This document shows positions 837 to 6,943 of a stretch of DNA of 6,983 bases, in pieces. The notes under the pieces were generated by a model. It had not been told where the DNA came from, searched no databases, and was given only the letters and a program-made list of their open reading frames with translations. Origin of the DNA: an uncultured Lachnospiraceae bacterium (lineage in GTDB: Bacteria; Bacillota_A; Clostridia; TANB77; CAG-508); NCBI GenBank assembly GCA_947165105.1, contig CAMUZC010000082.1:1-6983 (forward strand). Direction: 5' to 3'. The position numbers and the translations under genes are program-made. How positions within the stretch are numbered: the first letter of the stretch is position 1; each line of letters starts with the position of its first letter.

Positions 837-1415
837 ATGTTTAATGTAGGTGATAAAATAGTATATCCAATGCATGGTGCAGGGACAATACACGCAATAG
901 AAAAAAAGAATATTTTGAATGAGGAACAAGATTATTACATTATTTCAATGCCGGGAGAAGTAAAGGTAATGGTACCAACACAAAAGGCTGAGGAAATTGG
1001 TGTAAGAAATATAATAGATAAAAATGATGTTTCAAAGGTATTAAACATTTTAGAAGAAGATGAAACAGAAATGTCTGATAATTGGAATAAAAGATATAGA
1101 GATAACATGGACAAAATGAAAAGTGGAGATATTTATGAAGTTGCCGATGTTGTTAGAAATTTAAGCTTTAAGCAAAAAGAAAAAGGATTATCTACAGGAG
1201 AGAAAAAGATGTTAAATAATGCTAAACAAATTTTAGTTAGTGAATTAGTTTTAGCAGAGCATGTATCTCAAGATGAGATTGAAAAAATTGTTGATAATAA
1301 AATCAATGTTTCATTCAAAGAAAACAGATTACATGAAAATAATATAGCAGGAATAAACAATAACATAGTAAGTAAATTTATTCCTTTTGATAGTACAGGA
1401 ACATCTGAAAATTAA
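837..1415 (+). CDS. carD: CarD/CdnL-family RNA polymerase-binding transcription regulator
   Basis: Predicted cytoplasmic protein that binds the RNA polymerase beta subunit and stabilises the open promoter complex, as in the CarD/CdnL family; clostridial members are often annotated simply as CarD. The first 55 or so residues form the RNA-polymerase interacting domain, opening FNVGDKIVYPMHGAGTI. The helical remainder is the DNA-contacting domain, with W83 where mycobacterial CarD uses W85 to wedge the minor groove, followed by a KRYRDNMDKMKSGD helix. The last 25 or so residues form a polar, Asn-rich tail that looks non-conserved. Length is 192 residues, slightly above the usual 155-170. ATG 837 was chosen because AAGGAAG at 822-828 sits about 9 bases upstream. 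A GTG at 828 in the same frame is part of that ribosome binding site, so it is unlikely to initiate. The gene has its own promoter and terminator and lies next to the dnaG-rpoD operon, whose sigma product it would work beside. Confidence 0.9.
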   Translation: MFNVGDKIVYPMHGAGTIHAIEKKNILNEEQDYYIISMPGEVKVMVPTQKAEEIGVRNIIDKNDVSKVLNILEEDETEMSDNWNKRYRDNMDKMKSGDIYEVADVVRNLSFKQKEKGLSTGEKKMLNNAKQILVSELVLAEHVSQDEIEKIVDNKINVSFKENRLHENNIAGINNNIVSKFIPFDSTGTSEN

Positions 1416-1650: not shown

Positions 1651-3471
1651 ATGCCAAGATATAGTGACGAACTTATAGATGAAATTAGAAACAGTAATGA
1701 TATAGTTGATATTATCTCTCAATATGTAAATTTGAAAAAAAGTGGGAGAAATTTTTTTGGTTTATGCCCATTTCATAATGAGAAGTCACCATCTTTTGCA
1801 GTATCACCAGATAAGCAAATATTTCACTGCTTTGGATGTGGTGTAGGTGGAAATGTATTTCACTTTGTAAGCAAAATTGAAAATGTTGGGTTCAAGGAAT
1901 CAGTGGAAATGCTTGCTAATAGGGCAAATATAACTTTACCAACAATAGACAATGAACAAGATAATAAAGCATCATACTTAAAATCAAGAGTTTATGAAAT
2001 AAACAAACAAACTGCACAGTTTTACCATGAAAATCTGTATAAACCAACAGCTAAAGTTGCGCAAGAATATATAAAAAAGAGAAAGTTAGATAATAACACT
2101 CTAAAAACATTTTTAATAGGGTATTCGTGTAATTTTAATGAATTATATAAGTTTTTAAAACAACAAGGTTTTACAGACGAGGAAATTTTAGCATCTACTT
2201 TAGTAAATAGGAATGATAGAGGCGAATTTATAGACAGATTTAGAAAGAGATTAATGTTTCCAATACAAGATGAAAGAGGAAGAGTAATAGCATTTGGTGG
2301 AAGAATTTTAGAGGATAGTCAAATTAAAGATCCAACAAGGCCACAAGCTAAATACATCAACTCATCAGAGAATATAGTTTATAGTAAGGGAAGACATTTA
2401 TTTGGTTTATATGCAGCCAAAAAAGAAAAATTAGAAAAAATACTAATTGTGGAAGGTTATATGGATGCAATTTCTTTACATCAAAGAGGGATAACAAATG
2501 TAGTAGCATCTTTAGGAACAGCTTTAACAGAAGCTCAAGGAAGATTATTAAGAAAGAATAGCCAGCAAGTAATAATAGGCTATGATTCAGATGGAGCAGG
2601 ACAAGCTGCAACTATGAGAGGATTAGAAATACTACAAAATTTAGGTTGTGATATTAGAATTTTACAAATTGAGGGAGCAAAAGATCCAGATGAATACATA
2701 TTAAAATATGGACCTGAAAGACTTCAGAAATGCATTGATAATGCTATTTCACTTGTAGAGTATAAAGTTAAAATATTAAAAAATAAGTTAAATTTAGATC
2801 ATCCAAATGATAAAATTAAATTCTTAACAGAAATTGCAAAAGAACTTGCTAAAATCAGCAGCGATATTGAAAAAGAAGTGTATGTTGATAAAATTGCTTT
2901 AGATTATAAAATTTCAAAAGAGGCAATTTATGCTGAAATAAATAAAATATTATATCAAAAAAATCCAAATGATAAAAAATCTACACAAAGAAAAGTTGCT
3001 ATAAAATCTGAAAATAAAACTCAATTAAAGATGAATAATGATGCAATTACTAAAAAAGAAAATATGATAATATATCTTCTAATAAATTATCCAAAAGAAT
3101 CATATGATAGATTGAAAGCTCAAATAGGATATGAGAATATCAAAGATGAGAGAAATAAAATAATAATAAAAAAATTGTATGAAGAATTGGAAAAAGGAAA
3201 TAGTATTAATAATATAAATGTTTTAGATTTATTTGAAGATGAAGATATTATTAATTTTTTAACGTGGGTAATGGCATATGACTTTGAAATTACTGAGGTT
3301 GATAAGGCTGTTGAAGATATTTTAAATAACTATGAAAAAGATAAATTAATTTCAGTGAGAAATGAAATTATACAAGCTCTTGAAAATACAGATAATTTAA
3401 CAAATGAAGAAGTAGCTAGTTTGGAACAAAGTTTAAGTGAAGTAATAATTAAACTGGCTAAAATGAAATAG
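1651..3471 (+). CDS. dnaG: DNA primase DnaG
   Basis: Synthesises the short RNA primers for leading- and lagging-strand DNA replication, working with the replicative helicase at the fork. Length is 606 residues, normal for the family. An N-terminal zinc-binding domain carries ligands C39, H42, C60 and C63 (CPFH...HCFGCG). The catalytic core follows, with the RFRKRLMFPI and GRVIAFGGRIL stretches. The TOPRIM fold includes VEGYMD (267-272, Glu E268) and GYDSDGAG (310-317) with metal-binding D312 and D314, then KDPDEYILKYG. The C-terminal 150 or so residues are Lys/Glu/Ile-rich and match the poorly conserved helicase-binding domain. ATG 1651 is preceded by AAAGGA at 1638-1643. The stop codon TAG (3469-3471) shares its G with the GGAGG ribosome binding site of rpoD, so the two genes form a tight operon as in Bacillus. 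No yqfL- or yqxD-like gene precedes it. Confidence 0.98.
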   Translation: MPRYSDELIDEIRNSNDIVDIISQYVNLKKSGRNFFGLCPFHNEKSPSFAVSPDKQIFHCFGCGVGGNVFHFVSKIENVGFKESVEMLANRANITLPTIDNEQDNKASYLKSRVYEINKQTAQFYHENLYKPTAKVAQEYIKKRKLDNNTLKTFLIGYSCNFNELYKFLKQQGFTDEEILASTLVNRNDRGEFIDRFRKRLMFPIQDERGRVIAFGGRILEDSQIKDPTRPQAKYINSSENIVYSKGRHLFGLYAAKKEKLEKILIVEGYMDAISLHQRGITNVVASLGTALTEAQGRLLRKNSQQVIIGYDSDGAGQAATMRGLEILQNLGCDIRILQIEGAKDPDEYILKYGPERLQKCIDNAISLVEYKVKILKNKLNLDHPNDKIKFLTEIAKELAKISSDIEKEVYVDKIALDYKISKEAIYAEINKILYQKNPNDKKSTQRKVAIKSENKTQLKMNNDAITKKENMIIYLLINYPKESYDRLKAQIGYENIKDERNKIIIKKLYEELEKGNSINNINVLDLFEDEDIINFLTWVMAYDFEITEVDKAVEDILNNYEKDKLISVRNEIIQALENTDNLTNEEVASLEQSLSEVIIKLAKMK

Positions 3472-3483
3472 GAGGTAGAATTA

Positions 3484-4800
3484 ATGAAAAAATCTGAAAA
3501 AGATGAAATAGAAATGATACAAAAAATTGAAATACCAAATGTTATTGGAATGACAGAAGAAAAAGCAAGAAAAGAATTAGATAGATTAGATGTTATAATT
3601 AAATATGTAAATGATGAGAAAAAAGAAAATGGTGTAGTAACAGCTCAAAGTATAAAAGCCAAAACAACAGTTGATGAATATTCTGAAATAACAATTAAAG
3701 TAAACAAAAAAGAAGAAAAACATGAGTTAGATAAAGAAAAAGTTAAGAGTATAATTCAAAAGGCAAAAAAAGATGGAAAAATCACTTATGGTGAATTAGC
3801 AACACAATTAGGAGATGCAAATACAGAACAAATTGAAGAAGTATTTGATGAATTTGAAAATATTGGTGTAAACGTATTTAGTGAAGAACTTGAAGAACCT
3901 AATTTTGAAGATTTAGAAGAAGTTGAAGAAATAAAACTTGAAGAAATCGATGTTACAAACTTTGATGGTGTTAATGTTGATGATCCAGTAAGAATGTATT
4001 TAAGAGAAATTGGTAAAATACCATTATTAACATATGAAGAAGAATTAGATTTAGCTCAAAAAGTTCTTGAGGGAGATGAAGATGCTAAGCAAAAATTAGC
4101 AGAATCAAACTTAAGATTAGTTGTTAGTATTGCCAAAAAATATGTAGGAAGAGGAATGTTATTCTTAGATTTAATTCAAGAAGGAAACATGGGATTAATT
4201 AAAGCTGTTGAAAAATTTGATTATACAAAAGGATATAAATTCAGTACTTATGCAACATGGTGGATTAGACAAGCAATTACAAGAGCTATTGCTGACCAAG
4301 CAAGAACAATTAGAATTCCAGTGCATATGGTAGAAACTATTAACAAATTAATTCGTACTTCAAGAGATTTATTACAAAGATTAGGACGTGAACCAACGCC
4401 AGAAGAAATTTCTAAAGAGATTGAATTACCAGTTGAAAAAGTTTTAGAGATTCAAAAAATCGCACAAGATCCAGTATCTCTAGAAACACCAATTGGTGAA
4501 GAAGATGACAGTCATTTAGGAGATTTTATTCAAGATGATGATTCACCAGCACCTCAAGATTCTGTTGCATACACATTATTAAAGGAACAATTAGAAGAAG
4601 TAATGAATACTTTAACACCAAGAGAAGCAAAAGTTTTAAAACTTAGATTTGGTTTAGAAGATGGAAAAGCACGTACTCTAGAGGAAGTTGGAAAAGAGTT
4701 CATGGTTACTCGTGAAAGAATTAGACAAATTGAAGCAAAAGCTTTAAGAAAATTAAGACATCCTAGTAGAAGTAAGAAATTAAAGGATTATATGAACTAA
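3484..4800 (+). CDS. rpoD: Housekeeping sigma factor RpoD/SigA with an N-terminal PASTA domain
   Basis: Primary sigma factor that directs RNA polymerase to -35/-10 promoters. From residue 167 ([11 protein letters not shown], region 1.2) to the end it closely follows Bacillus SigA: region 2 with [15 protein letters not shown] and the -10-reading YATWWIRQ (256-263), region 3, and region 4.2 with the helix [16 protein letters not shown] from T409 and the [13 protein letters not shown] end. Residues about 82-137 resemble region 1.1 ([13 protein letters not shown]). The protein is 438 residues against 371 for B. subtilis SigA. The excess is an N-terminal segment that reads as a PASTA domain at about residues 15-75: [16 protein letters not shown], a middle strand, [13 protein letters not shown], and [12 protein letters not shown] 3484 has GGAGGT at 3471-3476. 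No ATG, GTG or TTG codon occurs in frame between codons 24 and 170, so the extension cannot be dismissed as a mis-called start. The gene is cotranscribed with dnaG. No clear terminator follows, so some read-through into the next gene is possible. Confidence 0.97.
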
Positions 4801-4879: not shown

Positions 4880-5212
4880 ATGAGAGGTCAAATGAAGACT
4901 GGAACTACTATGTTAGATAATATAAAAGAATATTTCAGAAACGCAGGAACATTTCTTTTTGGAAGTGATAATGTAGTTACTGATTTAGATGAAATTGATA
5001 ATTGGGGAGATTTTCATGGAGAAAATCAAGAAGAAATAGATGATATGGCTAGAATAATGAAAGCTGAAACAAGTTTAGGATTAGCAAAACAAAAAAGAAA
5101 TAAATTTGCTAAAGGATTGGAAAACAAGGAAAGGAATCCTCAAATAAGACAAACTAACAAGCAGTTAAGAACAGTCAAAAATGAAGAATTAGAAGATCAA
5201 AAAACTCGCTAA
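4880..5212 (+). CDS. Hypothetical protein, 110 residues
   Basis: I do not recognise this protein. It is cytoplasmic by appearance: no signal peptide or membrane segment is seen. The first 30 residues may form an amphipathic helix (MLDNIKEYFRNAGTFLFG). A strongly acidic stretch follows, with a lone Trp (DLDEIDNWGDFHGENQEEID, about 36-55), then a probable helix (DDMARIMKAETSLGLAKQ). The C-terminal 40 residues are basic, rich in Lys, Arg, Asn and Gln, and likely disordered. This acidic-then-basic layout would suit a nucleic-acid- or partner-binding adaptor, but that is speculation. ATG 4880 was chosen because CGGAGG at 4866-4871 sits 8 bases upstream. A longer reading from TTG 4814 would start inside the -35 of the promoter and is rejected. 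The gene has its own promoter directly after rpoD and a palindromic terminator directly after its stop. Codon use resembles its neighbours. Confidence 0.8.
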   Translation: MRGQMKTGTTMLDNIKEYFRNAGTFLFGSDNVVTDLDEIDNWGDFHGENQEEIDDMARIMKAETSLGLAKQKRNKFAKGLENKERNPQIRQTNKQLRTVKNEELEDQKTR

Positions 5213-5842: not shown

Positions 5843-5908
5843 TTATAGGATGTTTTTAACAATAAAAGCTTTATAAGCAGAAACATCTTCTTGGCTTAAT
5901 TGTTTCAT
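5843..5908 (-). CDS. Possible 21-residue ORF coupled to the spoVV stop
   Basis: The spoVV stop TGA (5907-5905) overlaps an ATG (5908-5906) as ATGA, the usual arrangement for translational coupling. The new frame runs 21 codons (MKQLSQEDVSAYKAFIV..., stop TAA at 5845-5843). Its composition looks like real protein: a Gln/Glu/Asp N-cap then an amphipathic helix, unlike the Ile/Lys/Asn noise of non-coding frames nearby. No Shine-Dalgarno sequence is seen. It may be a microprotein, the remnant of a decayed gene, or chance. Confidence 0.25.
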   Translation of the reverse strand: MKQLSQEDVSAYKAFIVKNIL

Positions 5909-6943
5909 AAATTAAAATAAAAAAAATCAAATAAATTTAAAATAATAAAAGTATAGAAGCTAGCAATAAAACCCTGCAATATTTTACCAATTAAATATGG
6001 CTTCATAGATAGATTGTTTTTTGAGGCAATACTAAAGATTTGCAAGAATATCGAAAATCCAGCAAATCCAAGTAAAAATGCGGTAATAATAATTTGCAAA
6101 GACATTTTTTTAGTATGTAATAATGAAACAGAATTGACACCGTTAGTAAGTTCTAATAAGCCTGTCACAATACTTTTTCCAAGGTCAGTAGGAACTTGAA
6201 AGCAAGATAAAATATTTGCAATAGAATCTATTATATTTAAACTATTCAATATAGAAATGATTATGGAAAACAGTACAATAAAACCACCAATTAATAAAAT
6301 AGTAGAAATTGCATTAGTAATACTATTACTTAAAATGGTTCCCAAATCAGAAATATTATAGTTTTGGGAAATGCTATCATTTTCATAGTTTCTTTTATTT
6401 TTAATCCAAGAGTGTTTACTGACAAAACCAAAAAGAAGACCAACAGTTAAACAAGCAATAACGTGCGTTATAAATAGAATAATTCCAATGGTAGTATCTC
6501 CAAATAAACTTATACCGACTGTTCCTATAATAAAAAGAGGACCAGAGTTGTTGGTAAAAGCAAGCATTCTTTCTGCTTCGGATTTAGTGCAAGTGCCATC
6601 TTCAACAAATTTATTAACAATTTTTGCACCAACAGGGTATCCACTAATTATACCCATAATAAAAGCATAGCTTCCTTCACCGTGGAACATTAAATAAAGG
6701 TCTCATGAATTTATTAGTCAGCTTTCCAAGATAGTAAGGAACATTGGTGTAATTTAAGAGTTCAGTGGCTATAAAAAAAGGAAAAAGAGATGGTACAACA
6801 TTTTTGGCCCAAAGGGTTAGTCCATTTTTTGCAGCAAATAAATTTGTTTGTGAGAAGATTACTAGAAATATTAAAAATAGTGTAAAGCAAATTGTTAGAA
6901 TATTTCTTTTAATTATGAATATAAATGATTTTTTATGTCTCAT
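5905..6943 (-). pseudogene. spoVV: spoVV (ylbJ) sporulation membrane transporter, split by a one-base frameshift
   Basis: Relative of B. subtilis SpoVV (formerly YlbJ), a mother-cell protein of the outer forespore membrane needed to import dipicolinic acid into the spore; it has the Gate fold of concentrative nucleoside transporters. The N-terminal part (ATG 6943, AAAGGAG at 6955-6949) starts with a basic end and a membrane helix, then WAKNVVPSLFPFFIATELL and RPLFNVP, but stops at TGA after 88 codons. The next frame continues exactly where the family does: GEGSYAFIMGIISGYPVGAK, SEAERMLAFTNNSGPLFI, several membrane helices, and LTNGVNSV. Removing one base, 6682, restores NVPGEGS and a 345-residue protein (B. 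subtilis about 400). No other lesion is seen, so either the mutation is recent, the read is wrong, or translation shifts +1 at CGG-TGA. CATATTAT at 6983-6976 could be the -10 of a sporulation promoter. Confidence 0.85.

Follow-up and report, generated by a model that had tools for sequence, protein, structure and literature searches.

Primary sigma factors rank with the most strongly conserved proteins of bacteria, and PASTA domains are chiefly known from outside the cell, on enzymes of the wall and on kinases. In the 6,983-nucleotide stretch of uncultured Lachnospiraceae DNA analysed here (the window), an initial annotation had read a complete PASTA unit at the N-terminus of the housekeeping sigma factor RpoD. 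The locus raises the questions of whether this fusion is real and translated, where the domain came from, and what it could do on a general sigma factor.

The PASTA domain is fused in frame to the start of rpoD, the gene of the only housekeeping sigma factor found (Table 1). Its boundaries were exactly those annotated, with the PF03793 profile matched in full (E 8.7e-13 with whole RpoD; residues 1-81 alone 51.4 bits, E 1.1e-13; cutoff 23.2). Regions 1.1, 1.2, 2, 3 and 4, annotated as intact, all exceeded their Pfam cutoffs, and the NCBIfam RpoD equivalog matched from residue 75 onwards, above its cutoff of 572 bits; together these identify a housekeeping RpoD/SigA. PASTA and sigma-70 were the only Pfam families above cutoff in RpoD, and transpeptidase and kinase domains were absent. 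Each of 16/16 genomes of the genus (relatives of the window genome) had one match at E ≤ 1e-50, its sole primary sigma factor. The PASTA match was not due to chance, because 110/110 homologues of residues 1-85 carried both PASTA and sigma domains; the profile score and structural comparison likewise ruled chance out.

Table 1. Features of the rpoD locus in window coordinates
Feature	Position	Strand	Evidence
CarD-family gene, upstream of dnaG	837..1415	+	PF21095, PF02559
dnaG primase, directly upstream of rpoD	1651..3471	+	ORF, Pfam
GGAGG Shine-Dalgarno, overlapping dnaG stop codon	3471..3475	+	sequence; identical in 9/9 compared
rpoD, 438-aa housekeeping sigma factor with N-terminal PASTA	3484..4800	+	ORF, Pfam, NF006666 RpoD equivalog 601.9 bits
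14-residue leader of rpoD	3484..3525	+	low synonymous divergence, pS 0.17
PASTA domain, residues 15-75	3526..3708	+	PF03793 48.5 bits, profile 1-64/64; fold prediction
Linker, residues 76-81	3709..3726	+	alignment; extended in some relatives (forms of 446 and 476 aa)
Sigma region 1.1, residues 82-147	3727..3924	+	PF03979 38.4 bits
Sigma region 1.2, residues 167-199	3982..4080	+	PF00140
Sigma region 2, residues 205-275	4096..4308	+	PF04542
Sigma region 3, residues 284-360	4333..4563	+	PF04539
Sigma region 4, residues 374-426	4603..4761	+	PF04545

Structure prediction of RpoD alone succeeded in part. The predicted N-terminus had the helix and three-stranded sheet of a PASTA fold, in one good model among five for residues 1-86 (pLDDT 72.8; the other four 38-42), but the full-length model was poor (pTM 0.31), so the domain is not positioned on polymerase by prediction. 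All 50 matches listed by Foldseek with the full-length model were sigma factors.

The order dnaG then rpoD was found in 31/31 loci compared (two of the 31 being the same place), with a CarD-family gene upstream in 11/15 longer loci (L001-L015). On the 3' side of rpoD, a gene for a 110-aa protein (window 4880-5212) had no NCBIfam match, and its product showed just 29-42% identity to its counterparts in L120 and L121, the two PASTA genomes in which the gene was found. The sporulation membrane protein gene ylbJ (window 5905-6943, minus strand) was split over two overlapping frames matching parts 2-75 and 76-324 of the TIGR02871 profile, which points to a frameshift or a sequencing error.

Translation of the extension, as originally proposed, was upheld by the start region. 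The GGAGG motif lies where it had been reported ahead of ATG 3484, and the 15 bases TAGGAGGTAGAATTA preceding the ATG did not differ between the window and 8 related genomes (9/9 identical). Synonymous divergence was low in codons 1-14 (pS 0.17 vs 0.52-0.58 elsewhere), in keeping with constraint on the first codons. In-frame ATG, GTG or TTG codons occurred at codons 1, 11, 23 and then 171, with none at 24-170, as had been stated. That the PASTA segment is untranslated, the true start lying after it, or that the fusion comes from a chimeric contig, is very improbable. In-frame ATGs at codons 11 and 23 would allow later starts, and 3/110 homologues were only 416 aa long, one of them (P0100) starting at codon 23. 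However, a start after PASTA would lose region 1.1 too, because codons 24-170 hold no start, and an internal start that drops PASTA yet keeps region 1.1 is excluded on the same ground; the unchanged ribosome site and the constrained first codons also speak against late initiation. Misassembly is refuted because the same fusion recurs in 8 genomes and 110 proteins.

The RpoD PASTA is under purifying selection. Pooled pN/pS (36 pairs of 9 sequences) was 0.37 in codons 1-14, 0.29 in PASTA, 0.13 in codons 76-147 and 0.033 in codons 167-438, so that PASTA was under weaker constraint than either region 1.1 or the sigma core; these being simple counts at high pS, the ranking counts more than the values. 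In four genomes, pN/pS was 0.28 for the RpoD PASTA, below the 0.37 that both the PBP1A PASTA and the last PrkC PASTA gave; the L,D-transpeptidase PASTA, in three of those four, reached 0.61.

Among RpoD proteins of related Clostridia, the PASTA N-terminus was found only in one subgroup of one genus. The 110 matches to residues 1-85 came from 5.8 billion proteins, in a search that needs shared 5-letter words and may thus miss distant cases; the few named ones were Clostridia bacterium MAGs. PASTA-RpoD was present in 8/16 whole genomes of the genus, in 8/390 genomes of the family sample (all members of that genus), in 4/385 of the order sample and in 1/391 of the class sample (G358, of the same genus), these three samples overlapping and none being exhaustive. 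Many further genomes of the order sample matched through PASTAs of proteins other than RpoD, a separation made by frame length and score only. The frames of odd length that were read in search of hidden PASTA-RpoD outside the genus turned out to encode PrkC in L189 and L190 and the terminal part of a PBP in L191. The sigma frames outside the genus whose matches extended furthest N-terminally (L172, L173, L192-L195) had lysine-rich tails and no PASTA, those of L069 and L077 had no PASTA, and none was seen in the RpoD N-termini inspected in 25 of at least 80 loci from the contig scan.

A FastTree phylogeny of 59 sigma cores placed the 13 with PASTA in one group that has no PASTA-less members (support 0.75), and 8 sigmas with another N-terminal module formed a separate group (support 0.96); the smallest group holding both kinds also takes in L013. 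Judged from this tree, PASTA would have been gained once, in the ancestor of the PASTA-RpoD subgroup.

That other module, a conserved sequence of about 120 residues, begins RpoD in the remaining 8/16 genomes of the genus (L127-L133; L010:5305-5679). It matched no Pfam family (two sequences tested), and at significant E it was found only in RpoD, among the 16 genus genomes and in the protein database, which added three further relatives. Decay from PASTA was ruled out (hhalign probability 0.2%), and derivation from other proteins was rejected, the only four non-RpoD matches (E 0.01-0.08; 3/4 frames read) being judged chance. Among the matches listed, 12 of the 15 nearest loci had charged, lysine-rich RpoD tails of about 46-228 residues, two (L002, L015) had short N-termini, and L010 had the sister module followed by a tail; RpoD tails were lysine-rich in six further family members. 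The linker between PASTA and region 1.1 varied in length as well, giving RpoD forms of 438, 446 and 476 aa. Since PASTA, sister module or tail occupies the same place, the N-terminus of this sigma has the look of a slot with exchangeable contents. The idea that the delta subunit had been replaced was considered and rejected: HARE-HTH exceeded its cutoff in 0/16 genomes, with weak 18-bit matches in two PASTA genomes (G057, G142).

Four PASTA-RpoD genomes were searched for other PASTA proteins, and all had them in kinase-type frames (673-710 aa), in two PBP-type frames (761-774 and 929-992 aa) and in frames of 480-525 aa adjoining a ychF-like gene, which, read by sequence motifs rather than by profiles, are presumably L,D-transpeptidases. 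Transpeptidase-like proteins, so classed by the same reading, with one or two C-terminal PASTAs were seen close to a ychF-like gene in L148, L150 and L151; in the latter two, a second transpeptidase-like gene lay between the PASTA-transpeptidase gene and the ychF-like gene. The best matches of an RpoD-PASTA model outside RpoD were the last PASTA of PrkC (64.4 bits), PBP1A (63.5) and the transpeptidase (60.7), with the remaining PrkC PASTAs at 20.1 bits or less. Because of these matches, the donor was likely a resident wall protein of that same subtype, whether PBP1A, L,D-transpeptidase or PrkC. The rpoD leader may be older than PASTA: a relative without PASTA (L194) begins MKNSENDAVKEVEKK, resembling the start of the leader in PASTA forms.

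Twenty RpoD PASTAs (8 from genomes and 12 from proteins picked for divergence) were compared with 37 others (those scoring at least 36 bits in loci that the analysis already covered), a contrast between two selected sets rather than a random sample. The 20 clustered together among the 57 PASTAs, a grouping read from the tree topology. Common to both sets were P18, V20, G22, E25, A28, L32, V37, Y41, G50, V52, Q55, S56, V63, I69 and N74. Gln13, Glu16, Lys40, Val42 and Ser67 occurred in more than 85% of the RpoD PASTAs vs less than 20% of the others, Tyr/Phe66 in 20/20 (Gly or Lys in 29/37 others) and Lys/Arg72 in 20/20 (Thr in 32/37 others); E68 likewise differed from the residue common elsewhere. 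Residues 40, 42 and 72 lie in the model strands 38-44 and 68-74 and alternate with conserved hydrophobics, which suggests a remodelled sheet face, their exposure being read from strand alternation and not from coordinates. No arginine was invariant among the RpoD PASTAs (position 29: Arg 10/20, Lys 10/20; position 34: Arg 12/20), in a comparison with PrkC Arg500 made at the level of sequence.

In free sigma, region 1.1 prevents binding to DNA, and in the holoenzyme it sits in the main channel. The reading tentatively preferred here is that PASTA acts as a folded cap before region 1.1, an interaction module rather than a sensor of wall fragments. Tethered on its variable linker, the cap would, once sigma is bound to core, come to lie close to the opening of the downstream-DNA channel, through which region 1.1 passes in and out; the RpoD-only Lys40, Val42, Tyr/Phe66 and Lys/Arg72 could there engage a new partner, the likeliest candidates being core polymerase, promoter DNA and a regulator, and the cap could tune the ease of region 1.1 displacement or the quality of holoenzyme formation. 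Such contact would be the simplest reading of RpoD-only residues under purifying selection, and the varying linker, the use of this slot by the sister module and the single group formed by PASTA sigmas also argue for an interaction cap. The constraint on PASTA, weaker than that on region 1.1 and the core, counts against it and favours the strongest rival, a possible but doubtful one: that in this order the sigma N-terminus can change freely and took on a stably folding unit as a tolerated passenger, which has no specific partner and must merely fold and not interfere. The great diversity of sigma N-termini, with lysine-rich tails in most of the nearest loci listed and in the six further family members, and the unrelated module that half of the genus has in place of PASTA, are consistent with a passenger. 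However, the RpoD PASTA is at least as constrained as the wall-protein PASTAs of the same genomes, it has conserved residues of its own, and its group in the core tree includes no sigma that lacks it.

The initial annotation had proposed that the domain binds a partner protein, core polymerase or a cytoplasmic wall precursor. The partner and polymerase part of this proposal is favoured by the RpoD-only residues and by selection, but precursor sensing is disfavoured by the lack of an arginine invariant in the sequence comparison and by the differing strand residues. A sensor that binds UDP-MurNAc-pentapeptide or a lipid-linked precursor, alters sigma activity and so ties global transcription to wall supply appears improbable. 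The PASTA core is kept, the nearest relatives are PASTAs of resident wall proteins, and muropeptides are ligands of the PrkC and PknB PASTA regions according to PMC3601408; but by sequence the RpoD PASTAs have no invariant arginine to parallel the Arg500 described there for PrkC, the strand residues are unlike those of wall-protein PASTAs, the unit is single, and in eight other genomes of the genus an unrelated module takes its place. That the general sigma factor would itself be the sensor of wall state, its PASTA binding a cytoplasmic peptidoglycan precursor and setting transcription from housekeeping promoters with neither kinase nor anti-sigma factor, is judged quite improbable.

No described system of this kind was known to the initial annotation, and no description of PASTA in a sigma factor or a cytoplasmic transcription protein was found in the open-access literature searched, most subscription papers being outside that scope. 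Among the open-access matches listed, PMC5062060 alone had the terms 'PASTA domain', 'sigma factor' and 'RpoD' together. Whichever function holds, this is a PASTA domain in cytoplasmic use. With a wall-protein domain captured here and retained by selection, and an unrelated module in sister species, the slot before region 1.1 can be an evolvable accessory site. A ligand-sensing cap would couple wall metabolism straight to global transcription; a polymerase-binding one would offer a natural tool for probing the workings of region 1.1.

RpoD of the window shares with group 1 sigma factors (RpoD/SigA) regions 1.1-4, the equivalog score, its occurrence as one per genome in relatives and the position of dnaG upstream, and differs in the additional PASTA ahead of region 1.1. 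The PASTAs of PBP1A, L,D-transpeptidase and PrkC face the cell exterior. Those of the same order are alike in fold and core residues, but they are C-terminal, whereas that of RpoD is N-terminal, single and cytoplasmic and conserves other strand residues; and PASTA-bearing wall proteins (PBP, Ser/Thr kinase) have a transpeptidase or kinase domain, unlike RpoD. A weak structural match was 8s7v_J, a chain of the archaeal methyl-coenzyme M reductase activation complex and otherwise an unrelated protein; its PASTA-like part, and the PF03793 hits seen in two methanogens among the control genomes, are possible precedents for a cytoplasmic PASTA. Mycobacterium tuberculosis SigA likewise has a lineage-specific N-terminal addition to the primary sigma, disordered where the present one is a folded PASTA; according to PMC10011835, its residues 132-179 are needed to initiate transcription, with promoter binding not significantly changed, which provides a precedent for lineage-specific N-terminal sequence that matters for initiation.
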